Assembly: GCA_022705905.1 (NCBI GenBank)
Contig: JAKJDO010000006.1
Location: 1 to 39,695, forward strand
Source of the DNA: Patescibacteria group bacterium
Lineage (GTDB): Bacteria; Patescibacteriota; Patescibacteriia; Patescibacteriales; UBA12075
DNA: 39,695 bases
Reading direction: 5' to 3'
Shown: positions 22,636 through 26,942 of the stretch, in pieces
Numbering within the stretch: the stretch's first letter is position 1
Layout: each line of letters opens with the position of its first letter
Notes under the pieces: model-generated
What the model was told of the DNA's origin: nothing
Databases searched by the model: none
What the model saw: only the letters and a program-made list of their open reading frames with translations
Translations under genes and position numbers: made by a program

Positions 22636-22673
22636 AGTATTATTATTTAAAATTAGCATAAAATTATATTTAT

Positions 22674-22700
22674 TTAGCACTCTCTTGACAAGAGTGCTAA
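22674..22700. promoter_or_regulatory. CIRCE operator (HrcA binding site)
   Basis: TTAGCACTC (22674-22682), 9-base spacer, GAGTGCTAA (22692-22700). It is an exact match to the CIRCE consensus and lies 125 bases before hrcA. The spacer contains the -35 box of the promoter. Confidence 0.97.
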
Positions 22701-22712
22701 ATGTTTTATAAT
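22685..22712 (+). promoter_or_regulatory. hrcA operon promoter overlapped by CIRCE
   Basis: TTGACA (22685-22690), 16-base spacer, TATAAT (22707-22712). Both hexamers are perfect consensus. The -35 falls in the CIRCE loop and the right CIRCE arm fills most of the spacer, so bound HrcA would occlude RNA polymerase. Confidence 0.9.
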
Positions 22713-22824: not shown

Positions 22825-23505
22825 ATGGATAAAAGAAAAGAGCTTATTCTTAATACAATCATAAAGGAGCATATCAAAAGCGGCGCACCAGTGGGCTCCA
22901 GTATTTTGGTGGAAAAATATAAACTAGATATTTCACCGGCGACTGTTCGTAATGAAATGATGGCTTTAGAGGACGATGGTTATATTATGCAACCGCATAC
23001 TTCTGCCGGCCGCATTCCGACCGAGAAGGCTTACTCCATGTTTTTAGAAAATTTAAAAATTAAAAAATTAGCTGCCCAAGAAAGCGAGGATATAAGTAAT
23101 ATATTAAAGAGCAGAGACGAGTCCGATTTAAAAGATGCGGCTAAAGCGGTTGCTAACATTTCAGGCACGGCAGTTTTTTGGGCATTTCATCGCCATAATC
23201 TTTTTTATACCGGCATTTCTAATCTATTGAAGCAACCTGAATTTAGAGAATTTAATTTAATTTATGATATTTCTGCCATTATTGACCACATTGATGAAGT
23301 GGTTGATAAGTTATTTGATCAATGCGAATTTGGCCGTCACGTTTTAGTCGGATCAGTTAATCCCTTCGGCAATTTTTGCAGTACGGTCTTAGTAAAATAT
23401 AAACTCGGCGATAATATTGGTTTAGTCGGCATCTTAGGACCAATAAGGATGGATTACGAGAAGAATATTGCGATTGCTGATTTTATAAAAGAAAAGTTAG
23501 GATAA
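22825..23505 (+). CDS. hrcA: Heat-inducible transcription repressor HrcA, compact form
   Basis: Represses heat-shock genes by binding CIRCE. The 226-residue product has the N-terminal winged-helix (residues about 1-75: LNTIIKEHIKSGAPVGS, SPATVRNEMMALEDDGYIMQPHTSAGRIPTEKAY) and the conserved C-terminal end (GILGPIRMDYEKNIAIADFIKEKLG). Canonical HrcA has about 340 residues, so some 110 are missing from the middle, where the GAF-like domain and inserted dimerisation domain reside; both ends are intact, so this is not a truncation. The CIRCE just upstream implies autoregulation of hrcA and the genes behind it. Confidence 0.94.
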   Translation: MDKRKELILNTIIKEHIKSGAPVGSSILVEKYKLDISPATVRNEMMALEDDGYIMQPHTSAGRIPTEKAYSMFLENLKIKKLAAQESEDISNILKSRDESDLKDAAKAVANISGTAVFWAFHRHNLFYTGISNLLKQPEFREFNLIYDISAIIDHIDEVVDKLFDQCEFGRHVLVGSVNPFGNFCSTVLVKYKLGDNIGLVGILGPIRMDYEKNIAIADFIKEKLG

Positions 23506-23538: not shown

Positions 23539-24204
23539 ATGAATGAAGAAAAAAAAGAGACAAACCTTAAACTAGGAACATATAAACATTATAAAGATAA
23601 GTTATATAAAGTTTTGTTTACAGCTATTAATACAGAAACAAAGGAAGATGAAGTTGTTTATCAAGCTATGTGTGGTGACGAAAAAATATGGGTTAGACCT
23701 AAAAAAATGTTTTTAGAAGAAGTTGAAGTTGAAGGAAAAAAAATGCCTCGTTTTCAATTTATTGAAGAAGATAAAAGCGATTGGCAAGATAAGTATAAGC
23801 GAGCGCTAGCTGATTACCAAAATTTACTGAAGCAAACAGCTAGAGAAAAAGCAGAGTTTGGAAGATTTGCACGCGAACAATTTTTAATCGAAATTTTACC
23901 AGTTTATGATAATTTAAAAATGTCTTTAATCCATTTTCAAGAAGATGCTGATCAAAACAACTGGGTAAAGGGAATTGAATATGTAACTAAACAGTTCAAA
24001 GATACTTTAGCAGGAATGGGAGTTGAAGAGATAAAAACAATTGGCATGAATTTTGATCACAATACAATGGAGGCGATGGATAACGAAGAAACGGAAGATA
24101 AGAAACATAACGGGAAGGTGGCTAAAGAAATAAAAGCAGGGTATAAGTTAAATGGGAAAGTCGTTATGCCCGCTAAAGTAATTGTTTATAAATTAAAAAA
24201 TTAA
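23539..24204 (+). CDS. grpE: GrpE nucleotide exchange factor with N-terminal DUF1653 domain
   Basis: GrpE exchanges ADP on DnaK. Residues about 85-221 form GrpE: a coiled-coil helix (DWQDKYKRALADYQNLLKQ, then REKAEFGRFAREQFLIEILPVYDNL) and the C-terminal beta domain (DHNTMEAM, AKEIKAGYKLNGKVVMPAKVIV). Residues about 10-78 match a different family, DUF1653: GTYKHYKDKLYKV, a TKEDEVVYQAM strand, WVRPKKMF and PRFQFIEE. DUF1653 proteins are usually small standalone proteins of unknown function. Here the domain takes the place of the usual disordered GrpE N-terminus. The gene lies 33 bases after hrcA and should share its CIRCE control. Confidence 0.95.
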   Translation: MNEEKKETNLKLGTYKHYKDKLYKVLFTAINTETKEDEVVYQAMCGDEKIWVRPKKMFLEEVEVEGKKMPRFQFIEEDKSDWQDKYKRALADYQNLLKQTAREKAEFGRFAREQFLIEILPVYDNLKMSLIHFQEDADQNNWVKGIEYVTKQFKDTLAGMGVEEIKTIGMNFDHNTMEAMDNEETEDKKHNGKVAKEIKAGYKLNGKVVMPAKVIVYKLKN

Positions 24205-24205
24205 A

Positions 24206-24261
24206 TTATTTTTTCTGCTCAAGTTGGTTTATTTTGAAATCAAGTTGGCAGAAAAAGGAAG
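24206..24261 (+). promoter_or_regulatory. Possible RNA thermometer hairpin before hsp20
   Basis: TTTTTCTGC (24210-24218) pairs perfectly with GCAGAAAAA (24248-24256). The stem can extend by a T-G pair, one mismatch and two A-T pairs into 24257-24260, which covers part of the GGAAG ribosome binding site (24257-24261) of hsp20. The 29-base loop has a direct repeat TCAAGTTGG (24219-24227, 24240-24248). An A/U-rich stem next to a heat-shock ribosome binding site suggests temperature-controlled translation. Confidence 0.5.
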
Positions 24262-24268
24262 AAAATAT

Positions 24269-24700
24269 ATGACAGCTATAATAAGATGGGCGCCATTACT
24301 CGAACCATTCGAGGAAATGGACAAAGTGTTAAGTGAGTTCGTCCCTACTGGACGACCAAGCCAAATGGGTTTTATGCCGGCAGTTGATATGTATGAAGAT
24401 AAAGACAATGTCATTGTCGAGACGCAATTAGCTGGTGTCGACCCAGAGAAGGTTGACATCGCTATCGAGAACGATGTTTTAACAATTAAGGGTGAGAGCG
24501 AAAAAAAAAGTGAAGTGGACGAAAAAAATTATTATCGCAAAGAAATACGCCGTGGCAGTTTTTACCGCAGTGTGCCATTGCCGGCGCATGTCATTGGTGA
24601 AAAAGCGGTAGCTGAAGCTGACGGCGGGGTGTTAAAAATTATGATTCCGAAAGCGCCGGAAGTAAAGCCGAAGACCATTAAAATTAAAACTAAAAAATAA
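24269..24700 (+). CDS. hsp20: Small heat-shock protein, Hsp20/alpha-crystallin family
   Basis: ATP-independent holdase chaperone. The ATG at 24269 is chosen because a GGAAG ribosome binding site lies 7 bases before it and the product (143 residues) then has a normal start; a TTG at 24224 would lie inside the leader hairpin. The alpha-crystallin domain spans about residues 35-130: PAVDMYEDKDNVIVETQLAGVDPEKVDIAIENDVLTIKGE, YYRKEIRRGSFYRSVPLP, and ADGGVLKIMIPKA. The C-terminal tail is KPKTIKIKTKK, with an IKI in place of the usual I-x-I anchor. It sits between grpE and dnaK. Confidence 0.95.
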   Translation: MTAIIRWAPLLEPFEEMDKVLSEFVPTGRPSQMGFMPAVDMYEDKDNVIVETQLAGVDPEKVDIAIENDVLTIKGESEKKSEVDEKNYYRKEIRRGSFYRSVPLPAHVIGEKAVAEADGGVLKIMIPKAPEVKPKTIKIKTKK

Positions 24701-24718
24701 AATCGATAACTCCCCCAA

Positions 24719-24741
24719 CCCCCTCTTTCGAAAAGAGGGGG
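24719..24741. repeat. GC-rich perfect hairpin upstream of dnaK
   Basis: CCCCCTCTTT (24719-24728), loop CGA, AAAGAGGGGG (24732-24741). No T-run follows. The surrounding C-rich and G-rich tracts (24712-24780) suggest a dispersed non-coding repeat rather than a terminator. Confidence 0.6.
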
Positions 24742-24782
24742 AGAACGACCACCTTCCTTTATGGGAGGGGGCAGGGAGGGTT

Positions 24783-24802
24783 CAGGAGCTTTTTTGCTCC
24801 TG
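24783..24802 (+). terminator. Hairpin with T-rich loop, possible terminator
   Basis: CAGGAGC (24783-24789), TTTTTT loop, GCTCCTG (24796-24802). The T-run is in the loop, not after the stem, so terminator function is doubtful. Confidence 0.35.
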
Positions 24803-24886
24803 CCGACTGCGTAAACTTTGCCTTGGAAAAATAAATGTTTATTTCTTTGCTAAATATTTATTAAGAAGACATTTACGCGGTCAGCA
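24801..24886. repeat. Long imperfect inverted repeat upstream of dnaK
   Basis: Arms 24801-24815 and 24872-24886 pair in 14 of 15 positions (13 Watson-Crick, one G-T). Inside is a second perfect palindrome (24829-24844, AAATAAA TG TTTATTT). The layout resembles a small MITE or a structured RNA. Confidence 0.55.
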
Positions 24887-25014
24887 GGGGAGGAAAAAAA
24901 TCAAAATACAAAAGTAAAAAGTCAAAATTAATGTATCGTTTCGCGATAATAATTTCTGTCTTAAATTATTAATAAATTGCACATTGCCCGTCTCGCCATA
25001 TTTTTATGTGTTAC

Positions 25015-25031
25015 GTGCTATGTGATATGTG
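25015..25031. repeat. ATGTG-rich repeat before dnaK
   Basis: GTGCTATGTGATATGTG. The 13-mer TATGTGATATGTG (25019-25031) and 11-mer GTGCTATGTGA occur in inverted orientation at 27726-27746 before dnaJ. Confidence 0.55.
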
Positions 25032-25040
25032 ATAAAAACT

Positions 25041-26942
25041 ATGAGTAAAATTTTAGGAATTGATTTAGGCACAACGAACAGTGCCATGGCCATTATTGAA
25101 GGTGGTCAACCAAAAATTTTAGAAAACTCCGAAGGCAATCGCACCACGCCTTCTATCGTGGCTGTTTCCAAAAACGGCGAAAGATTAGTCGGATTAACAG
25201 CCAAAAGACAAGCTGTTACCAATCCGGAAAATACCGTTTATGCCATTAAGCTTTTAATCGGCAGACGCTTCGAAGATGAAGAGGTGCAACGCGATATCAA
25301 AACAGTGCCATATAAAATTGTAAAATCTGGCGAAGGCGTAAAAGTAAAAATGAATGGTCAAGAATACACTCCGCAAGAAGTTTCGGCTATGATTTTAGCC
25401 AAATTAAAAGCTGATGCTGAGGCTAAAATTGGAGAAAAAATTACCGAAGCGATTATTACCGTTCCAGCTTACTTTGATGATTCACAGCGCCAAGCTACTA
25501 AAGACGCTGGTAAAATTGCCGGTTTAGATGTTAAGCGTATTATTAACGAACCAACTGCAGCTGCTTTAGCCTATGGTTTTGAAAAAAAGAAAGGACAACA
25601 AATCGCAGTTTATGATTTAGGCGGCGGCACTTTTGATATTTCCATTTTGGATGTTAGCGAAGATACGGTTGAAGTAAAATCAACTAATGGTGATACGCAT
25701 TTAGGCGGCGAAGACTTTGATCAGCGCTTAATCAAATGGATTATCGATGAATTTAAAAAAGATCAAGGCGTTGATTTGTCAAAAGACACTTTGTCATTGC
25801 AAAGGATTAAAGAAGCGGCCGAAAAAGCTAAGATTGAATTATCGACGACGATGGAAACCGAAATAAATCAACCGTTTATAACCAGCGATGCAAACGGTCC
25901 TAAGCATTTGGTGATGAAGATGACTAGGGCTAAACTGGAAGAAATTGTTGGCGATTTAGTGGAAAAGACTTTGGAGCCTTGTAGGGCCGCTTTGCGTGAT
26001 GCGGGATTAGAAACAAAAGATTTAGAGGAAGTTATTTTAGTTGGTGGTATGACCCGCATGCCTTTAGTCCAGAAAAAAGTAAAAGAATTTTTTGGCAAAG
26101 AGCCGCACCTAGGGGTTAATCCAGACGAAGTCGTGGCGTTAGGCGCTGCTGTTCAAGCCGGTGTTTTGCAGGGAGATGTTAAAGATGTGTTGCTTTTAGA
26201 TGTGACACCATTAACTTTGGGCATTGAAACTTTGGGTGGAGTAGCTACGCCGTTAATTGAGCGCAACACAACCATCCCAACTTCTAAATCGCAGGTTTTC
26301 TCAACCGCAGCTGATAACCAAACTAGTGTGGAAATTCATATCGTGCAAGGCGAGCGTCCGATGGCACACGACAATAAGACTTTAGGCAGGTTTATTTTAG
26401 ACGGCATTCCGCCAGCACCGCGCGGTATCCCGCAAGTTGAAGTAGCTTTTGACATTGATGCTAATGGTATATTGAATGTCAGTGCTAAAGACAAAGCTAC
26501 TAGTAAGATGCAAAAAATTACTATTACCGCTTCGTCTGGTCTGTCAAAAGACGAAGTTGAAAAAATGCGCAAGGAAGCGGAAATGCACGCTGACGAAGAT
26601 AAAAAGAAGAAAGAACAAGTAGAAATCAAAAATCAAGCTGACGCAGTTATCTTTCAAATGGAGAAGCTGATAAAAGACGCCGGTGATAAAATGAAACCAG
26701 AAGATAAAAAAGAGTTGGAAGAAAAAATCGAAGCGATAAAGAAAGTAAAAGACGGAAATGACATTGATGATATAAAGAAAAAACTTGATGACTTAAACCA
26801 GTCAGCGCAAAGAATCGGTGCGGCTATGTACCAACAACAAGGACAAACCGCCTCCGCCGAAGCTTCGGCGAGCCAAGGTGGTGAAGAACCAAAAAAGAAT
26901 GAAGATGGAACTGTAGAGGGACAATACGAAGAAAAAAAATAA
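25041..26942 (+). CDS. dnaK: Chaperone DnaK (Hsp70)
   Basis: ATP-dependent chaperone working with DnaJ and GrpE. The ATG at 25041 gives the standard start [18 protein letters not shown] (633 residues); the GTG at 25029 lies in the preceding repeat. The nucleotide-binding domain includes [15 protein letters not shown] and the [13 protein letters not shown] motif, the linker is [14 protein letters not shown], and the substrate-binding domain follows with the helical lid, ending in a Q- and E-rich tail (EGQYEEKK). It follows hsp20 by 340 bases of hairpin-rich sequence. Confidence 0.98.

Follow-up and report, generated by a model that had tools for sequence, protein, structure and literature searches.

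A positionally conserved hairpin upstream of hsp20 in an order of Patescibacteria as a candidate RNA-level control element

The heat-shock operon and the hairpin in the grpE-hsp20 gap

The window, i.e. the whole stretch of 39,695 nucleotides analysed here, belongs to a genome of 0.95 Mb, that of an uncultured Patescibacterium, whose closest named relatives are Ca. Falkowbacteria / Parcubacteria-group Patescibacteria. Pfam assignments gave the gene order hrcA, grpE, hsp20, dnaK at the site under study, and this order was seen again in nearly all loci read. The features of the operon are as follows.

22672-22702, plus strand: CIRCE operator, TTAGCACTC-N9-GAGTGCTAA within ATTTAGCACTCT...AGAGTGCTAAAT, an inverted repeat with 12-nt arms that are 100% complementary
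22685-22712, plus strand: sigma70 consensus promoter TTGACA-16-TATAAT, predicted from the consensus match (12/12)
22825-23505, plus strand: hrcA, heat-shock repressor (Pfam HrcA, 6.4e-17)
23539-24204, plus strand: grpE with an N-terminal DUF1653 domain (Pfam GrpE, 5.2e-38; DUF1653, 7.1e-25)
24269-24700, plus strand: hsp20, 143 aa with an alpha-crystallin domain (Pfam HSP20, 5.7e-17), start residues common to relatives; the presumed controlled gene
25041-26942, plus strand: dnaK, the next gene of the operon, ATG at 25041 (Pfam HSP70, 2.2e-259)

The -35 hexamer of the promoter sits in the spacer of the CIRCE palindrome (22672-22712), thus HrcA binding would directly cover the promoter. All 69 loci of the order whose sequence extends far enough upstream of hrcA carry a CIRCE element there (at most 3 mismatches in 18 positions), and we infer from this conserved operator that transcription of the operon is set by HrcA/CIRCE. 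The segment 22725-22818, between the promoter and hrcA, is a MITE-like element bounded by terminal inverted repeats of 14 nt (TTTGTTGTCATTCC / GGAATGACAATAAA); it makes the hrcA 5' UTR longer, and its ends were found again at a dozen other sites of the genome. The DUF1653 domain of GrpE is encoded by 23539-23760, and the in-frame fusion was present in ~30 loci read across the order, which suggests that DUF1653-GrpE is a regular GrpE variant in these bacteria. The hsp20-dnaK gap (24701-25040, ~340 nt) contains several palindromes rich in G+C, CCCCCTCTTTCGAAAAGAGGGGG among them, and also a larger inverted repeat with imperfect arms near 24780-24890; among relatives, the length of this gap ranges from <10 nt to >1 kb.

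The grpE stop codon (24202-24204) and the hsp20 ATG (24269) are separated by a gap of 64 nt (24205-24268). A preliminary description of this DNA had placed there a perfect 9-bp stem filling the whole gap, with a 9-base direct repeat in its loop. The stem was recovered as described, with 24210-24218 (UUUUUCUGC) pairing with 24248-24256 (GCAGAAAAA). Folding extended it to a hairpin of 20 bp in total with a 6-nt loop, with an energy of -20.3 kcal/mol at 37 °C and -10 kcal/mol at 60 °C, and the stem is predicted to be stable past 60 °C. By the folding model, the hairpin is thus real and stronger than first described, and it takes up most of the gap, although not all of it. The direct repeat is also present (TCAAGTTGG at 24219-24227 and 24240-24248), but the region in which it lies is itself paired. 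Because CAAGUUGG is nearly self-complementary, the two copies pair together and build the inner helices, so the repeat belongs to the stem and was rejected as a separate loop feature. The parts of the hairpin and the adjoining region are listed below.

24209-24218, plus strand: 5' strand of the outer helix P1, U-rich, pairing with 24248-24257 in the fold
24219-24247, plus strand: inner part of the hairpin, with helices 24220-24222/24245-24247 and 24224-24230/24237-24243 and the loop 24231-24236, from the fold and the TCAAGTTGG copies
24248-24257, plus strand: 3' strand of P1, GCAGAAAAAG, purine-rich, from the fold; it overlaps the 5' half of the Shine-Dalgarno-like (SD-like) AAAGGA
24254-24261, plus strand: presumed Shine-Dalgarno region AAAGGAAG, with 24254-24257 in the stem and 24258-24261 mostly open, from per-base probabilities and complementarity to the 16S tail

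The 16S rRNA of the window genome itself ends in ...ACCTCCTTTCT. The stem had also been proposed to reach into the GGAAG ribosome-binding site by G-U and A-U pairs; one U-G pair (24209-24257) bears this out, but A24259 and A24260 are only weakly paired. Per-base probabilities indicate that AAA at 24254-24256 is sealed and G24257 mostly paired, that G24258 stays ~95% unpaired whether at 20, 37 or 50 °C, and that A24259-A24260 are partly paired in the cold. An openness of the ribosome-binding site at all temperatures, named beforehand as a result that would speak against regulation, was therefore found in part: the second half of GGAAG is open throughout, while AAAG at 24254-24257 and the flank from -20 to -12 are sealed.

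Several simpler identities of the hairpin were rejected. A transcription terminator was discounted, since neither strand has a U-tract after the stem and a pattern scan raised no flag. A DNA operator was discarded because the hairpin sequences vary between relatives, unlike CIRCE, and a multi-copy repeat because no further significant copy was found in the genome.

Folding of hsp20 leaders across the order

We folded the hsp20 leaders of the order over positions -65 to -3 and compared them with dinucleotide shuffles; 98 leaders were usable. As a matched null we sampled 21 stretches, most of them 20 kb long, and took from them 84 co-directional genes whose gaps measured 40-250 nt. The relatives compared all come from outside the window's genus. 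The median z of the hsp20 leaders was -3.2, with 73% below -2 and 54% below -3, compared with a median of -0.58 for the null genes (21% and 12%, respectively). The corresponding Mann-Whitney p of ~2e-13 is merely indicative, because the species are not independent. Within the same loci, grpE leaders had a median z of +0.1, and hrcA leaders a median of -3.1, which is expected because of CIRCE. A weaker trend, with no purine bias, was seen for dnaK leaders (median z -1.5); two of them (L050 and L051) carry a strong hairpin that ends ~35-40 nt upstream of dnaK, with a pair change between both (CGGCCCTGAAATATTCGGGGCCG / CGACCCTGAATTATTCGGGGTCG). In other orders of the class the hsp20 leaders had a median z of -1.3, with 40% below -2, and the SD (AAGGAG) is often free, downstream of the hairpin.

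The leader sequences are wholly different between genera, while the position of the hairpin is kept. The distance from its end to the ATG is 8-14 nt in 91% of leaders from the window's family (f1) and in 73% of those of a second family (f9), in comparison to 26% of the null genes, and the total stem length stays near 16-20 bp irrespective of sequence. The conservation in relatives, whose failure would have spoken against the preliminary description, thus holds for structure and position across the order, and is joined by massive covariation in one family, f9. In family f20 (L022, L041, L043, L056) there is a second alignable hsp20-leader hairpin, UUUCCGCG-UUAAUUCU...AGAAUU-ACGCGGAA, with apparent pair changes that extend into the SD among its four sequences.

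These comparisons bear on the possibility that the hairpin has no regulatory role in the window and is a chance or repeat-derived palindrome made from two near-palindromic 9-mers. The window stem is indeed made from the TCAAGTTGG repeat, its sequence is unlike the hairpins of relatives, and MITE-like repeats lie nearby. However, the genome holds no other significant copy of the element, and the window leader (z ~-4.8 against dinucleotide shuffles) ranked as the most extreme when 22 co-directional leaders of this genome were sampled. In 10 of the 11 analysed members of the window's family, moreover, a hairpin with z at or below -2.7 occupies the corresponding position of the leader. A lack of function is thus already disfavoured by positional conservation, and we consider it very improbable. 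The second hsp20 paralog of the window genome, the start of which is uncertain, showed no strong leader hairpin (-4.5 kcal/mol).

The covarying hairpin of family f9

The covariation result is that of family f9, which consists mostly of Falkowbacteria genera. Its hairpin has an outer helix P1 of ~11 bp, a 3x2 internal loop (5' UCY / 3' UU), an inner helix P2 of ~4-8 bp and a variable loop; the 3' strand of P1 is purine-rich and Shine-Dalgarno-like, and P1 ends ~9-14 nt before the hsp20 ATG. We aligned 21 sequences, picked by fold and for the UCY/UU loop. Each of the 16 pairs counted shows changes at both of its positions, with 88 double-change cells compared with 25 in shuffles, a count that is partly circular because the sequences were chosen for folding in this way. 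In the motif model, 16 of 16 pairs again change on both sides (136 double-change cells, 38 in shuffles). As an independent test, the covariance model was searched against 397 kb of loci and gave 31 matches, all of them at an hsp20 leader and 10 outside the building set. Among 111 genomes of the order (E <= 0.05), 25 of 27 matches lay at hsp20, one per genome, and the other two were weak. At E <= 0.001, f9 was the sole family found among 381 genomes of the class. The motif is absent from Rfam 15 and, as far as Rfam 15 and the open-access literature searched show, it is a new RNA element.

The window hairpin has the position and length of the f9 motif but lacks the UCY/UU loop, and the covariance model finds no match in the window genome. 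Within the window's family, L015 is one member that does have a UCU/UU loop.

In f9, U-C-Y and U-U in the loop are (near-)invariant, in contrast with the flanking pairs, every one of which varies; one genus carries the variant loop UUA/CU. Such a pattern could indicate that the loop is a site for a protein (a ribosomal protein, Hsp20 or another regulator) by which hsp20 translation is repressed or released, temperature having no more than an indirect effect. The loop consensus, however, is confined to one family and L015 of f1 and is missing from the window. The invariance is also partly by choice, because the 21 aligned sequences were picked for the loop, and non-canonical pairs are heat-labile points in ROSE thermometers as well (PMC4166951). 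We therefore regard a protein site as improbable.

The ribosome-binding region and the possible roles of the hairpin

The part of the leader that the hairpin covers was compared between families. The purine fraction of the outer 3' strand was 0.79 in f9 and 0.69 in f1, in comparison to 0.52 in the null genes. Predicted pairing at -20 to -15 and at -15 to -10 amounted to 0.89 and 0.72 in f9, 0.86 and 0.73 in f1, and 0.56 and 0.47 in the null. With an SD-like site defined as a pairing to the 16S tail of the same genome, ACCUCCUUUCU, at dG <= -3.5 kcal/mol, such sites occurred in 50% of f9 leaders, compared with 21% of null genes, and their predicted pairing probability in f9 was 0.91. By inspection, most f1 relatives have no recognisable SD. 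The fraction of positions -20 to -8 that is open at 37 °C was 0.24 in the window and 0.25 in f9; in the same model, the E. coli leaders of ibpA and ibpB had 0.31 and 0.27 open.

What the analysis shows is the predicted hairpin itself, its conserved position, its covariation in one family, its almost exclusive link to hsp20 and the excess of purines in the outer 3' strand. The fixed distance to the start, the hidden SD-like purines and the restriction to hsp20 point to control of translation initiation. The reading that we favour, with evenly balanced confidence and by way of the folding model, is that a hairpin close to the ribosome-binding site restrains hsp20 translation and that heat is the likeliest signal for its release. 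The stem-loop ending ~8-14 nt before the hsp20 ATG would cover the region occupied by the 30S subunit, -20 to -12, and, where present, the SD-like purines; hsp20 translation would thereby be kept low relative to its operon neighbours. Heat might then loosen the A/U-rich outer helix and release hsp20 translation, as in known small-heat-shock thermometers. This restraint of translation has to be set against several observations. Half of the SD-like stretch in the window is predicted to be open at all temperatures, its stem to be stable beyond 60 °C, and an SD that could be hidden is not recognisable in most f1 relatives; in other orders a free AAGGAG often lies 3' of the hairpin. In the 7 of 98 loci with a grpE-hsp20 gap of <40 nt the folding effect is absent (median z -0.75), therefore the hairpin is dispensable. 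The conserved UCY/UU loop, in turn, would be unneeded for merely hiding an SD.

Folding at 20-50 °C had been suggested as a check on thermosensing. ViennaRNA predicts a slow drift with no sharp melting for the window hairpin. Nor does it predict sharp melting for ibpA and ibpB of E. coli, whose leaders barely change up to 47 °C. Since these known thermometers look alike in the model, folding neither supports nor excludes heat sensing, and computed melting was dropped as a means of judging it. Most known thermometers are located before small-heat-shock genes, and their sequences are poorly conserved (PMC4166951), a precedent that favours heat as the signal. The hairpin is a probable candidate heat sensor, and it could work like a single-hairpin RNA thermometer.

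The element was also compared with the known types. A likeness to ROSE and fourU thermosensors, suggested at first, did not withstand closer comparison, and by the features tested the hairpin is not a member of either. Neither the window nor ten motif-bearing or related loci gave an Rfam match at the gathering score. ROSE elements consist of two to four stem-loops, the 3'-most of which masks the SD (PMC4166951), whereas the present element is a single hairpin with a different internal loop. Like ROSE (E. coli ibpA/ibpB, rhizobial hspA, Pseudomonas ibpA), it lies directly upstream of a small-heat-shock gene, covers the ribosome-binding region to a similar extent in the same folding model and has non-canonical positions within the stem; unlike ROSE, it belongs to a Patescibacteria operon under CIRCE/HrcA, and its thermal response is putative. 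With fourU (Salmonella agsA) it shares a U-run opposite a purine-rich SD flank upstream of a small-heat-shock gene. However, the six U of the window mostly face AAAAA (U24210-24214 opposite A24252-24256), and the sole U that pairs with a G of the SD is U24209, in a U-G pair to the first G of GGAAG, not four U against AGGA. Closest in architecture is the Synechocystis hsp17 thermometer, one short hairpin with an asymmetric internal loop upstream of an hsp20-type gene. That internal loop is a 1x3 bulge (PMC4477652), as opposed to 3x2 in the f9 motif, and it separates the start codon and the ribosome-binding site, both of which lie within the hairpin. The present hairpin, unlike that of hsp17, ends ~8-14 nt before the ATG, with its loop beyond the SD-like strand.

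A different fate of the message might also explain the hairpin. The long irregular stem could be cut by RNase III, or it could shield the 5' end of an hsp20-dnaK message released by processing; post-transcriptionally, hsp20 would then reach higher levels than hrcA-grpE. An RNase III gene is present in the window genome and in 54 of 59 genomes searched, the stem length stays near 16-20 bp whatever the sequence, with that of the window being compatible, and there is an asymmetric internal loop in the middle of the stem. Such a loop resembles classical phage T7 RNase III sites. The SD, which is half free or absent in the window and several relatives, and the free AAGGAG that often follows a hairpin in other orders fit processing or stabilisation. 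Processing alone, however, would not lead one to expect a near-fixed spacing of 8-14 nt before the ATG, nor a 3' strand that is rich in purines and SD-like, and some motif members (L028, L066) have inner helices of just 2-4 bp. In the B. subtilis dnaK operon mRNA the hrcA part is cleaved off and decays faster, according to a passage in PMC3446304 citing Homuth 1999. This hrcA-grpE-dnaK-dnaJ mRNA has the same operon core, CIRCE/HrcA control and segmental mRNA fate; there the hrcA message is cleaved off, whereas the present element lies between grpE and hsp20, with putative cleavage, and it precedes hsp20 instead of being located at the hrcA-grpE junction. We consider processing or stabilisation a serious alternative, although a rather unlikely one.

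Restraint of hsp20 translation may be taken one step further. As a tentative proposal from the folding and covariance models, the hsp20 leaders of the order would form an undescribed class of RNA thermometer. The UCY/UU loop of f9, lying between covarying helices, would set the temperature at which the SD-bearing helix opens, and elsewhere, the window included, the same architecture would be built from unrelated sequences. An open-access search, which covers part of the literature, returned no paper on RNA thermometers in the Candidate Phyla Radiation, or on heat shock in Falkowbacteria. The f9 internal-loop motif is a concrete small RNA, for which melting, protein binding and cleavage are testable in E. 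coli or in vitro. Across the order a hairpin is retained before hsp20 while its sequence varies freely, suggesting an RNA switch on protein production that is not yet on record. Such a covarying hairpin, located almost nowhere but at hsp20 and unrecognised by Rfam, would add a second, RNA-level heat-shock control to minimal genomes and, if true, the thermometer class would place such control on top of CIRCE/HrcA in these organisms.
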